From: Candidatus Fermentibacterota bacterium
Lineage (GTDB): Bacteria > JAFGKV01
Reading direction: 5' to 3'
Assembly (NCBI GenBank): GCA_030620115.1
Contig: JAUXFG010000076.1
Coordinates: forward strand, 1 to 17,755
Length of the DNA: 17,755 nt
The notes under the pieces were generated by a model, which saw only the letters and a list, made by a program, of their open reading frames with translations, searched no databases and was not told the DNA's origin. A program made the position numbers and the translations under genes. This document shows positions 47 through 17,531 of the stretch, one piece after another. Each line of letters opens with the position of its first letter. Positions within the stretch are counted from its first letter, which is position 1.

Positions 47-238
47 TTAACCCGGACTTCTCACCGGGTTTCGAAGCGAAGTCCCGCGTCGGACGCGGGA
101 TTCTGAATGCAAGGCTTGCGACTGAGGATTCCGCAGGCGTATCCTCTGCGATACGTCGAGGAAGCCGACAGAGCATAACGCCGCAGGCGGGGCCATATCG
201 GCTGCTTCAGCCGAAAGTTGGTGAAAAGCTCGGGTTAA
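47..238. repeat. Hairpin-rich repeat element, copy A (upstream of hypC)
   Basis: A 192-bp element whose ends are imperfect inverted repeats: 47-66 matches the reverse complement of 219-238 at 16 of 20 positions, and both outer ends read TTAA next to CCCGG. A related copy lies at 2653-2865. Inside are several short hairpins: TCCCGCGTC/GACGCGGGA at 82-100, GAGGAT/ATCCTC at 124-146 and CGGCTG/CAGCCG at 199-213. It ends just before the Shine-Dalgarno of hypC (241-247), so it must be transcribed as leader if the hypC promoter lies further upstream. No protein of the element is visible; small open frames through it look fortuitous. It resembles a non-autonomous MITE or a REP/BIME-type palindromic element, but the family is not identified. 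Confidence 0.75.
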
Positions 239-255
239 GAAGGAGGTAAGAAAAC

Positions 256-507
256 GTGTGTCTCGCAATCCCTGCCAAAGTCATCTCGGTCGAACCAGGC
301 GGTCTCGCCATGATCGAGATCGAAGGTGTGCGGCATAAGGCGTCGGTGGAGCTGGTGCCAGAGGCGGAGGTGGGTTCCTATGTCATCGTGCATGCCGGTT
401 TCGCCATCAGCGTCCTCGATCAGGAGGAGGCCCAGGGGACGTTGAAGCTCTTCCAGGAGATGGCCGAGATGGCTGCGGAGACCCCGCATGTCGGGGATAT
501 CGGCTGA
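256..507 (+). CDS. hypC: HypC, [NiFe] hydrogenase maturation chaperone
   Basis: An 83-residue protein of normal HypC/HupF length. It begins MCLAIPAKV, with the invariant Cys2 that, after removal of Met1, binds the iron of the cofactor precursor and the large-subunit precursor. The family pattern VGSYVIVHAGFAISVLD follows at about residues 39-55, then EEAQGTL. HypC is cytoplasmic and partners HypD as the scaffold on which the Fe(CN)2CO group is built. The start is GTG, fixed by the MCLA motif and by AGGAGGT at 241-247 eight bases upstream. It is the first gene of hypCDE, with 21 bases to hypD. Repeat element A ends immediately before its ribosome binding site. A TTGACT at 9-14 could be a -35 box, but the matching -10 (CACCAT) is poor, so no promoter is claimed. 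Confidence 0.96.
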   Translation: MCLAIPAKVISVEPGGLAMIEIEGVRHKASVELVPEAEVGSYVIVHAGFAISVLDQEEAQGTLKLFQEMAEMAAETPHVGDIG

Positions 508-528
508 GAACAGATAGCCGGAATAACC

Positions 529-1614
529 ATGAAATTCATTTCGGAGTTCAGAGAGGGAGCTCTTGGCTCCGGTTTGGTTCGCCGGATCGAGCGGCTCTCT
601 CGCCCCATACGAATCATGGAAGTCTGTGGCGGGCATACCCATGTCATCTGCAGATATGGGATTCGCGACCTTCTTCCTCCTGATATCCAGTTGATCCACG
701 GGCCTGGCTGCCCGGTCTGCGTCATCCCGCAACACGAGATCGAGAAAGCCATCGAGCTCTCAACTCGACCCGGTATTCTGCTCTGTTGCTTTGGTGACGT
801 GATGCGTGTGCCCACAAGGCGAGGTACCCTCTTCTCCTTGGCCCGGGGACGCGGTTCGGTCAAGATGGTCTACTCTCCCTTGGAGGCAATTGAGATGGCC
901 GCCGCTCTTCCGGACAAGGAGATCGTCTTTTTCGCCATCGGCTTCGAGACCACGGCTCCATCAACCGCTTTGGCATTGAAGCGAGCCAGTAGCCAGGGAT
1001 TGGCCAACTTCAAGGTCCTCTCCACCCATTTCATCATCCCACCCGCCCTCAGGGTGCTCGTGAAAGACAGTTCCAGCAGAATCGGTGCGTTCATCGCCCC
1101 CGGCCATGTGACCACGATTATCGGTCCCGACGCCTACTGCTTCCTTGCCGACGAGTACAACCGCCCCGTGGTAGTCACCGGCTTCGAGCCCTTGGACCTC
1201 CTGCAAGCCATCATGTTGATCCTTCAGCAGGCAGCTGAAGGAAAACCACGAGTGGAGAATCAATACACACGTGCAGTCAGGGTTCAAGGCAACCGGCGAG
1301 CTCTTGAAGCCATGGATGAGGTCTTCGAGATTCGCCCCGCCATATGGAGGGGCCTTGGCCTCATTCCGGGAACAGGGTTGGGCATTGCGCCGGCCTTTGC
1401 GCCGTGGGATGCGGAAAAGGCGTGGGATCTGTCTCAGGTCGAGCCAGCACCTGAACCCCCCGGATGCCTGTGCGGCGATGTGCTCAAGGGTGTGTCGCAA
1501 CCCAAGGACTGTTCCCTGTTCGCTGTCTCGTGTACTCCTGATAGCCCTGTAGGCCCATGTATGGTGAGCCCCGAAGGAGCCTGTGCAGCCCACTACCGTT
1601 ACCGGGGAGCATGA
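529..1614 (+). CDS. hypD: HypD, Fe-S hydrogenase maturation protein
   Basis: A 361-residue protein, the usual HypD length. Hallmarks are MEVCGGHTHVICRYG (Cys33, Cys41) and IHGPGCPVCVIP (Cys61, Cys64). The middle holds FFAIGFETTAPSTA and GHVTTIIG. The C-terminal cysteine-rich segment contains CLCGDVLKG, Cys residues in DCSLFAVSCTPDSP and VGPCMVSPEGACAAHYRY, and carries the ligands of the [4Fe-4S] cluster. HypD accepts cyanide from HypE-thiocyanate and, with HypC, assembles the Fe(CN)2CO centre in the cytoplasm. It lies 21 bases after hypC and 21 bases before hypE, so the three are almost certainly co-transcribed. The ATG at 529 has only a weak ribosome binding site, consistent with translational coupling. 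All key cysteines are present and the gene appears intact. Confidence 0.96.
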   Translation: MKFISEFREGALGSGLVRRIERLSRPIRIMEVCGGHTHVICRYGIRDLLPPDIQLIHGPGCPVCVIPQHEIEKAIELSTRPGILLCCFGDVMRVPTRRGTLFSLARGRGSVKMVYSPLEAIEMAAALPDKEIVFFAIGFETTAPSTALALKRASSQGLANFKVLSTHFIIPPALRVLVKDSSSRIGAFIAPGHVTTIIGPDAYCFLADEYNRPVVVTGFEPLDLLQAIMLILQQAAEGKPRVENQYTRAVRVQGNRRALEAMDEVFEIRPAIWRGLGLIPGTGLGIAPAFAPWDAEKAWDLSQVEPAPEPPGCLCGDVLKGVSQPKDCSLFAVSCTPDSPVGPCMVSPEGACAAHYRYRGA

Positions 1615-1635
1615 GCATGACCAGGAGATATCAAG

Positions 1636-2652
1636 ATGCCAATAGGTAAAACCATCACGCTCGCTCACGGTGCCGGCGGCCGAGCCAGTGACGAACTGAT
1701 CAGGGAAATCATCTTGCCCGCCCTTGGCGGAGACCCCCGTTCGTGCCTGCCTGATTCGGTGGTGCTGAGCAATCTTGGCGAGCGGTTGGCCTTTACTACC
1801 GATAGCTATACGGTGAGCCCCTTATTCTTCCCTGGCGGGAATATCGGGAAGCTCGCGGTCTATGGCACAGTAAACGACCTCGCCATGTCAGGAGCGGAGC
1901 CACTTCTCATTTCGCTTGGTCTCATACTCGAAGAAGGCCTTGAGATCGATCTGCTCCGGAGAATCATCGAAGAAATCGGTGAAGCAACGAAAGAAACAAA
2001 GATCCGGGTGGTCACCGGCGACACCAAGGTCGTGGGTCGCGGAGCCGTGGACAAGATCTTCGTCAACACGTCGGGCATCGGAGCCCTTCCCGCATTCATC
2101 GGGCGGATCGCCCCGAATCAGGCAAGACCAGGAGATGTTGCTTTGGTGAGCGGAGCTCTTGGCGACCATGGCATTGCCGTGATGGCTGCCAGGGAGAAAC
2201 TCTCGTTTACTTCCAATATCAAGAGCGACTGCGCACCGCTTCACACGCTTGTGGCAACGCTGCTGCGGGCCGCACCCCACACCAGATGCCTGAGAGATCC
2301 TACTCGCGGGGGCGCAGCCGCCACCCTGAACGAGATCGCCCGTGCTTCACGGGTCGGTATTGAACTTGACGAGAACGCGATCCCGGTTCACCGGGAAGTG
2401 ATGGGCCTTGCCGAACTCCTCGGCCTTGATCCGCTCTTCCTCGCAAATGAGGGCAAGCTGATTGCCGTGGTGCCGGAGGAAGAGGCCGAGGCCGCCTTGG
2501 CAGCTCTGCGGGAGCATCACCTTGGGTTCGAAAGCAACATTATCGGTAAGGTTACCAGTGACCATCCTGCATCAGTGGTGATCAAAACAACCATGCGTAC
2601 GCATCGGGTGGTGGAATACCCCGCGGGAGAGTTGCTTCCCAGGATCTGTTAG
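1636..2652 (+). CDS. hypE: HypE, hydrogenase maturation carbamoyl dehydratase
   Basis: A 338-residue PurM/AIR-synthase-fold protein. The N-terminus has HGAGGRASDELI (about residues 11-22). The nucleotide-binding region has FTTDSYTVSPLFFPGGNIGK (about 53-72) and VYGTVNDLAMSGAEPL, followed later by DPTRGG. The protein ends PRIC: the last residue is the cysteine whose thiol is carbamoylated by HypF and dehydrated with ATP to thiocyanate, the source of the CN ligands. AGGAG at 1623-1627 precedes the ATG. The TAG stop (2650-2652) directly abuts the left end of repeat element B, so the functionally essential C-terminus survived exactly at the element boundary. hypF, hypA, hypB and hydrogenase structural genes are not in the window. 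Confidence 0.96.
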   Translation: MPIGKTITLAHGAGGRASDELIREIILPALGGDPRSCLPDSVVLSNLGERLAFTTDSYTVSPLFFPGGNIGKLAVYGTVNDLAMSGAEPLLISLGLILEEGLEIDLLRRIIEEIGEATKETKIRVVTGDTKVVGRGAVDKIFVNTSGIGALPAFIGRIAPNQARPGDVALVSGALGDHGIAVMAAREKLSFTSNIKSDCAPLHTLVATLLRAAPHTRCLRDPTRGGAAATLNEIARASRVGIELDENAIPVHREVMGLAELLGLDPLFLANEGKLIAVVPEEEAEAALAALREHHLGFESNIIGKVTSDHPASVVIKTTMRTHRVVEYPAGELLPRIC

Positions 2653-2865
2653 CCCGGACTTCTCATCGGCTCTCGAAGCGAAACAGCCGAGATGGTTCTG
2701 AATGCGAGGCTTGCGACTGAAAACCCCGCAGGCGTATCCCCTGCGAGGAGCCTGTGCTGAGCGCCAGCGAAGTATCTGGAGGCTGATGGAGCGTAACGAA
2801 GTCCCGCGTCGGACGCGGGATGCCATATCGACTGTTGCAGCCGATAGTTGGTGAGAAGTTCGGGC
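2653..2865. repeat. Hairpin-rich repeat element, copy B (downstream of hypE)
   Basis: A 213-bp relative of the element at 47-238, in the same orientation. The ends form an inverted repeat, CCCGGACTTCTCA at the left pairing with TGAGAAGTTCGGG at the right with one mismatch. Blocks shared with copy A, in order, include CCCGGACTTCTCA, CTCGAAGCGAA (TTCGAAGCGAA in A), TTCTGAATGC, AGGCTTGCGACTGA, CCGCAGGCGTATC and GCCATATCG, and a G/TTGGTGA..AG..CGGG end. The 25-bp stretch with the TCCCGCGTCGGACGCGGGA hairpin occurs in both copies but at different places (77-101 in A, 2797-2821 in B). The element fills the space between the converging hypE and the minus-strand gene ending at 2892. Confidence 0.75.
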
Positions 2866-13130: not shown

Positions 13131-13278
13131 AACGTTCAACATCGAACATCCAACGTCCAACGTCGAAGTGCAAGAGAGTGAGGGAGAGTGGAAATGCTCA
13201 GGTCTGTATCCACAGCGCTTGTCAGAGTGATCCTCTTGACTTGAACGTTCGATGTTGAGCGTTGAATGTTCGATGTTC
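13131..13278. repeat. Inverted pair of AACGTT/TTCGATGTT-type repeats
   Basis: Two copies of a degenerate repeat in opposite orientation: 13131-13167 (AACGTTCAACATCGAACATC onward) and 13241-13278 (TTGAACGTTCGATGTTGAGC onward), separated by 73 bases of unique sequence. They could form a long imperfect stem between the converging heparinase-family gene and lpxD. The same repeat recurs at 14574-14622 and 14745-14774. Similar sequence is known as intergenic filler in several environmental bacterial genomes; its origin is unclear to me. Confidence 0.65.
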
Positions 13279-13332
13279 TTCCTTCCCAATCCCCCAATCA
13301 TAGCAATCCCGCAATCCCCTTTCCCCTCCCCT

Positions 13333-14401: not shown

Positions 14402-14447
14402 CTGATAAATCTCTAGTAAATCCATGGATTTACTAGAGATTTATCAG
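14402..14447. repeat. Perfect 46-bp palindrome upstream of lpxD
   Basis: Two 23-base arms are exact reverse complements with no spacer, centred on CCATGG between 14424 and 14425. The arms begin CTGATAAATCTCTAGTAAAT and are AT-rich, unlike the surrounding DNA. The palindrome lies about 70 bases upstream of the lpxD ATG, on the promoter side. It could form a hairpin in RNA or a cruciform, be a large operator, or be a mini inverted repeat; no T-run follows it. Confidence 0.85.
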
Positions 14448-14573: not shown

Positions 14574-14774
14574 CATTCGATGTTTCGCCAGCTGGCGGAT
14601 TGAATGTTCGTCGTTCGATGTATCTCAAGAGAGCTCTCAGCCCTTTGCCGAAGAAGTATTGCATCTCTGGAGGGACGCGCTCCGTCGCGTCCGTCGTTCG
14701 AGCGTCAACGGCCATGACTAAGCATGGCCTTCCATCATCCCCACTTCGATGTTGAATGTTGAACGTTCGATGTT
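14574..14774. repeat. Cluster of TTCGATGTT-type repeats with embedded hairpins
   Basis: Repeat copies at 14574-14622 and 14745-14774 match the copy at 13241-13278 (TTGAATGTTCG and CGTTCGATGT blocks). The first copy is interrupted by a perfect 12-bp palindrome, CGCCAGCTGGCG (14586-14597). Between the copies lie two more hairpins: GGACGCG/CGCGTCC (14673-14692) and GGCCATG/CATGGCC (14710-14729). The arrangement suggests small palindromes inserted into, or carried with, the repeats. Confidence 0.6.
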
Positions 14775-15043
14775 TTCCTCTCCTCCCTCCTTCCTCCTCA
14801 ACAGCTCAACAGCATATCAGATCCCCTCCGTCTCATTCGACGTTCATACTCTTAATCCCCCAATCCCACAATCTCCTCTCCCAATCTGTGAAATCTGTGG
14901 TTCGCAATCCAGCATTTCCCATCCCCCCAATCGACCAAAGGTCGCAAAACCTTTCTTTGCGGGCTTTACGACTTTTCGTGAGGCTCACATCCCCAGATTT
15001 CCAAATTATAGATTTCAGATTCCAGATTCTCCCCATTCCCCAT

Positions 15044-17455: not shown

Positions 17456-17531
17456 TCCTCGGTAGCTCAATTGGTAGAGCGGGTGGCTGTTAACCACTAG
17501 GTTGGGGGTTCAAGTCCCTCCCGGGGAGCCA
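17456..17531 (+). tRNA. tRNA-Asn (anticodon GTT)
   Basis: A full cloverleaf of 76 bases: acceptor arms TCCTCGG and CCGGGGA (one G-U), D arm GCTC/GAGC with GG in the loop, anticodon stem GGTGG/CCACT around loop CTGTTAA with anticodon GTT at 17489-17491, T arm GGGGG-TTCAAGT-CCCTC, discriminator G and an encoded CCA end. It decodes AAC and AAU. Confidence 0.97.

Follow-up and report, generated by a model that had tools for sequence, protein, structure and literature searches.

The two related repeats on either side of hypC, hypD and hypE are ordinary scattered insertions of a MITE, and the family behind them is an undescribed one whose fold is widely conserved. We consider it likely that the two copies, A (51-234) and B (2653-2864), are independent insertions of a single MITE that is mobilised by an IS1380-type enzyme and carries a folded core selected on one strand. 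A transposase-free MITE would be moved in trans by an IS1380-family DDE enzyme that reads arms of the form CCCGGACTTCTCACC and inserts the element at YTAR, duplicating those 4 bp. The arms enclose a core of about 140 nt whose architecture is fixed: its internal loop is CGTCGCGAG/CCGCAGCAG, its inner stems number two or three, and its apex is a hairpin with a loop of the GGA/GAG type. Selection would keep one strand of this core folded, and the element probably acts as, or passes through, a folded single strand, either RNA or single-stranded DNA. We infer both the IS1380-type enzyme and the single-strand stage. The hyp genes are bystanders; B struck the stop codon of hypE without altering the protein.

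A and B lie in the same orientation in the window, by which we mean the whole 17,755-nt stretch of DNA that was analysed. They share three ordered blocks: 47-80 with 2649-2682 (88% identity), 101-151 with 2696-2746 (88%) and 192-234 with 2822-2864 (86%). Each is closed by an imperfect inverted repeat of about 15 bp, and as blastn queries they found 50 (A) and 53 (B) matches in their own genome, far more than chance would give. A, 184 bp on the plus strand, has its left arm, identified from the sequence and the end-motif count, at 51-65 (CCCGGACTTCTCACC) and its right arm at 220-234 (GGTGAAAAGCTCGGG). B, 212 bp on the same strand, has its arms at 2653-2667, also of the CCCGGACTTCTCACC type, and 2850-2864 (GGTGAGAAGTTCGGG); as RNA it folds with a z of -4.4. 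Comparison of A with B and a cassette census placed the hairpin cassette H1, CCCGCGTC-GACGCGGG, at 82-101 in A, where it sits as TCCCGCGTCGGACGCGGGAT within the first inner stem, and at a different location, 2802-2821, in B. In B, a further cassette, H4 (GAGGAGCCTGTGCTGAGCGCCAGCGAAGTATCTGGAGGC, 2745-2783), replaces the apical hairpin. The original prediction, which had described paired, co-oriented elements with ordered common blocks and terminal inverted repeats enclosing exactly three cofactor-assembly genes, holds in each of these respects. The genes, all on the plus strand, are hypC (256-507, TIGR00074), hypD (529-1614, TIGR00075) and hypE (1636-2652, TIGR02124). It was also right that the elements are non-autonomous: they are short, have terminal inverted repeats, lack a transposase ORF and occur in many copies.

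The further proposal that hypCDE had been mobilised as a unit did not survive. Such a composite cassette, in which direct copies served as transposon ends and brought the operon in, is what two same-orientation copies around exactly three genes might suggest, but we now find it scarcely credible. A is flanked by its own TTAA duplication, at 47-50 and, immediately upstream of the hypC ribosome-binding site, at 235-238. A search for target duplications, as originally advised, thus gave a matched pair for A and an unmatched one for B, which has TTAG on its left (2649-2652, whose TAG serves as the stop codon of hypE) and CCAT on its right (2865-2868), the TTAG duplication having decayed. The outer ends of the A-B pair therefore lack a matching duplication (TTAA left of A versus CCAT right of B). 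In both other genomes of the phylum (G001 and G002), the order hypC-hypD-hypE is kept without elements; neither genome has an excess of the end motif or a match to the family model, and this comparison, like the count of copies at hundreds of other sites, speaks for independent insertions and against a cassette; the original prediction had itself named both observations as grounds for giving the idea up. The distance between A and B needs no special explanation, because such distances are common at the density of paired elements found here, about 1 per 13 kb, with 12 of 35 neighbouring pairs no more than 2.5 kb apart. On the strength of A's own duplication, the outer-flank mismatch, the element-free hypCDE of the relatives and the copy number, we reject the cassette: A and B are independent insertions beside a resident operon. 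The C-terminus of the hypE product, GELLPRIC, is intact and identical in both relatives. Loss of hypCDE through recombination between A and B is possible.

How numerous the element is in this genome became clear from its 13-nt end motif, CCCGGACTTCTCA: allowing at most one mismatch, the 4.1-Mb assembly has 455 occurrences of it, against 6 of a reversed-motif control; this corresponds to more than 200 element copies. Direct reading of a 1.65-Mb sample, about 40% of the genome, yielded 126 paired copies, which make up 1.3% of the sample, and many single ends. Inner stems are often swapped for palindromic cassettes, which in the same sample also occur outside elements (H1 at 26 places, H2 at 51), and element copies are nested within one another. 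One copy (L145:601-1698) is interrupted by an insert of about 0.9 kb without a transposase. The window holds other repeats as well: a perfect 23-bp inverted repeat without spacer at 14402-14447 (CTGATAAATCTCTAGTAAATCCA and its complement), to which a stretch adjoining an IS701 copy elsewhere (L177, about 2520-2560) is similar, and, as another dispersed type, TTCGATGTTGAATGTTGAACGTTCGATGTT-type repeats, direct and inverted, at 13131-13286 and 14742-14783. A tRNA gene lies at 17456-17528 (Rfam RF00005, 68 bits).

The element is found well beyond this genome. Searching GTDB genomes with YTARCCCGGACTTCTCACC gave at least 72 stretches, against about 7 expected by estimate; the matches listed come from Planctomycetota, Myxococcota, Acidobacteriota, Eisenbacteria, Gemmatimonadetes, Proteobacteria and others, phyla being counted from the named records of that scan. 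Several matches are complete copies of 173-178 nt with CTAG on both sides, and across phyla copies are 173-179 nt long. We built one covariance model from copies of the element's own genome (R1) and another only from copies of other phyla (R2). R1 scored copies from other phyla at up to 117 bits, and R2 found A (57.8 bits, E 6e-15) and B (56.2 bits, E 1.6e-14) on the plus strand, each model thus detecting the other's elements across phyla. With R2, full-length copies were found in 10 of 145 sampled genomes, the present one included, with up to 19 per genome among the matches listed. The neighbours of copies in other lineages are unrelated genes, indicating that the element is not tied to any particular gene. 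The exact 33-nt core pattern had no match in GTDB, the end pattern had none in viral contigs, and plasmids gave only one short marginal match of 38 nt. Two further element types have the same arms around another interior that is folded just as strongly: one of about 240 nt in a gammaproteobacterial MAG (L184, L201, L244) and one of about 265 nt in MAGs recorded as Alphaproteobacteria, Rhodospirillales or Proteobacteria (L193, L211, L224, L227, L252).

Across this range the stems covary, and the fold is biased towards one strand. In an alignment of 29 copies from 15 lineages (A4; MAFFT, 60% mean identity), 53 of 54 predicted pairs show compensatory changes, and the covariation score is 0.616, versus 0.228 (sd 0.010) in shuffled and at most 0.16 in slid alignments. 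The stems diverge in sequence yet stay paired, and the loops TTCGTCGCGAG, CCGCAGCAG and GGAGGCGTA..TACGTCGAG are conserved. The same strand is the better folded in all 15 lineage means, by 19.8 kcal/mol. After dinucleotide correction its z is -10.5, against -7.7 on the complement (15 lineages, p 2e-4), or -5.8 against -3.4 for the core alone, and the consensus folds at -67.6 versus -30.5 kcal/mol. Because homologous elements share ancestry, these 15 lineages are not fully independent. Pair types lean the same way (G.U 143 versus A.C 37 overall), and orientation judged from sequence motifs alone agrees in 53 of 55 copies from other lineages. From this one-strand fold across lineages, selection appears to act on a single-stranded form, be it RNA or DNA.

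A plain DNA palindrome, in which template switching between the arms generates covariation and no single strand has a function, could produce some of the same pattern. The bases at -1 and +1, immediately next to the arms, complement each other in 76 of 116 copies versus 52.5 expected, as though template switching had carried the palindrome on into the target duplication, and the mismatches in arms of the element's own genome are strand-symmetric (48 G.T, 46 A.C) once three fixed-wobble positions are omitted. Part of the arm covariation may thus stem from template switching rather than selection. As the arm asymmetry in this genome disappears without the fixed wobbles, it is the core and the other lineages that carry the strand claim, and there a palindrome alone is a poor fit: one strand folds better in every lineage mean, the core alone included, inner pairs number 106 G.U against 33 A.C, and asymmetric loops are conserved. 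We regard this explanation as unlikely.

The flanks of the element are YTAR on both sides, and insertion makes 4-bp YTAR target duplications. Identical flanking 4-mers were found in 23 of 116 copies versus 11.6 expected, a count that none of 5000 shuffles exceeded. Base -4 equals base +1 in 59 of these copies (45.5 expected, p 0.003), and base -1 equals base +4 above chance (p 0.03). One nested copy interrupts the cassette module GGGCGTAGCCTGG, in the form GGGC-GTAG-element-GTAG-CCTGG, with GTAG duplicated; the empty site is known, the uninterrupted GGGCGTAGCCTGG occurring many times. Copies in other lineages are flanked by TTAG/TTAG and CTAA/CTAA, and the complementary combination was not seen among them. 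Since YTAR contains TAA or TAG, an element that inserts into a stop codon restores it, and in the 1.65-Mb sample 34 of 182 YTAR-flanked ends fall on the stop of an ORF 100 or more codons long, versus 11% of random YTAR sites. Relative to genes, 32 copies are sense and 23 antisense. This bias is not significant, which would make a role in host mRNA less likely than one in the life cycle of the element itself.

Judged from the ends and the target duplication, the enzyme most likely to recognise the arms in trans is a DDE transposase of the IS1380 family. IS1380 elements, annotated or identified by profile, carry CCCGCATTTTTCAC between CTAG and CTAG, CCCGTCCTATTCACC between CTAA and CTAA, and, in a third case, CCCGGATATTTCATAA at both ends between TTAG and TTAG. 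In a gammaproteobacterial MAG, an IS1380 transposase (NF033539, 394 bits) is bounded by CTAG-CCCGGATTTCTCTCC on one side and GGTGAGAAATCCGGG-CTTG on the other, and the same MAG holds further elements with CCCGGATTTCTCTCC / GGTGAGAAATCCGGG ends. The present element thus combines IS1380-type ends with the 4-bp YTAR duplication, and it is because ends and duplication agree that we draw the link; co-occurrence is no part of its basis. With IS1380 insertion sequences (ISEcp1, IS1247 and relatives) it has in common the CCCG..TT-TCA ends and 4-bp YTAR duplications, and it differs from them in being about 176 nt long, without a transposase and with a conserved folded core, and in that the genomes bearing it have no IS1380 above cut-off. 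No such transposase was found above cut-off in this genome or in the 10 R2-positive genomes, and ten R2-negative genomes have one. A MITE usually shares its genome with an autonomous parent that has the same ends, although this is not a strict requirement. PF13701 and NF033539 gave matches only far below cut-off in this incomplete MAG, in which the transposase with matching ends that the original prediction advised looking for was likewise not found. A PF13701 match is also absent from Planctomycetota OFTM49, which has near-identical element copies. Among long end-to-end units in about 1.65 Mb, none carries a transposase; what turned up was an insertion lacking one, and ordinary genes. Counting against IS1380 recognition, the arms in one genome (G084) vary from copy to copy, each pair remaining complementary, and a sequence-reading transposase does not account for this.

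Other transposase families fit less well. IS630/Tc1 elements duplicate TA, and the 4-bp YTAR duplication excludes this type; PF13358 is also absent from the genome. For IS701 the CTAG target fits, but the ends are CCCTACAACGAC, and copies matching PF13546 likewise end differently from the element. One IS701-family element of this genome, at L177:977-2524, appears to be intact; its ends are 18 bp long (CCCTACAACGACAGTTAG) and its target sites are CTAG.

Two further explanations concern what the folded strand is for and what moves it. The element could be a gene for a structured non-coding RNA that serves the host and has simply multiplied, the plus-strand RNA being the product and the arms its closing stem. 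The strand-specific fold, strong covariation, conserved loops, constant length across phyla and freely varying arms of G084 would all suit such a gene. Its patchy distribution, copy numbers of up to hundreds, 4-bp target duplications, unrelated neighbours and lack of a significant orientation preference would not, and we consider this quite improbable. That the element is REPIN-like and travels as a hairpin with the help of a RAYT (Y1 transposase) is more improbable by far. REPINs, as described by Bertels and Rainey, form hairpins, show compensatory changes and occur in hundreds of copies (PMC3116915), as does the present element, and a RAYT gene is indeed present in the genome (phmmer 155 bits, L116:12697). 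However, the element lacks the GTAG head of REPINs and has a 4-bp target duplication, and the resident RAYT has another REP: it is flanked by its own palindrome, GTAGGTCGGGTTAGCGCAGCGTAACCCGACAT, which is unrelated to the element, and the element neither matches nor flanks that REP. The locus itself (L116:12673-13299), a RAYT gene between inverted GTAGGTCGGGTTAGCGCAGCGTAACCCGACAT copies, is a REP-RAYT system whose palindrome is dispersed elsewhere in the genome. A MITE moved by an IS1380-type enzyme, with a core kept folded on one strand, remains our preferred explanation.

The Rfam 15 covariance models gave no match to the element, and our search of the open literature found no paper on this family. 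Its nearest counterparts in kind are Correia/NEMIS and ERIC/IRU, MITEs of 100-200 bp with target duplications and stable stem-loop transcripts (PMC2229807; PMC10969869). The present family shares with them its size class, target duplications and stem-loops; unlike them, reported as they are from Neisseria and from enterobacteria and Vibrionaceae, it occurs in several phyla, is GC-rich, uses YTAR instead of TA and shows demonstrated covariation. BOX elements of Streptococcus pneumoniae are likewise modular and built from exchangeable blocks; here, palindromic cassettes substitute for stems inside a closed inverted-repeat element.

For hydrogenase biology the case is an ordinary one: the operon is native and the repeats beside it are bystanders. 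Bacterial MITEs are usually regarded as narrow, host-specific decay products of insertion sequences. We tentatively entertain, with slightly more doubt than conviction, a pan-bacterial family that would be defined not by sequence but by a conserved, strand-specific fold of about 176 nt, whose folded RNA or single-stranded DNA would be needed for its spread, with outer arms that are exchangeable and stems that in some lineages accept hairpin cassettes. Covariance detects the one-strand fold of this family in several phyla, an indication that structure in a single strand is important for a DDE-type MITE.
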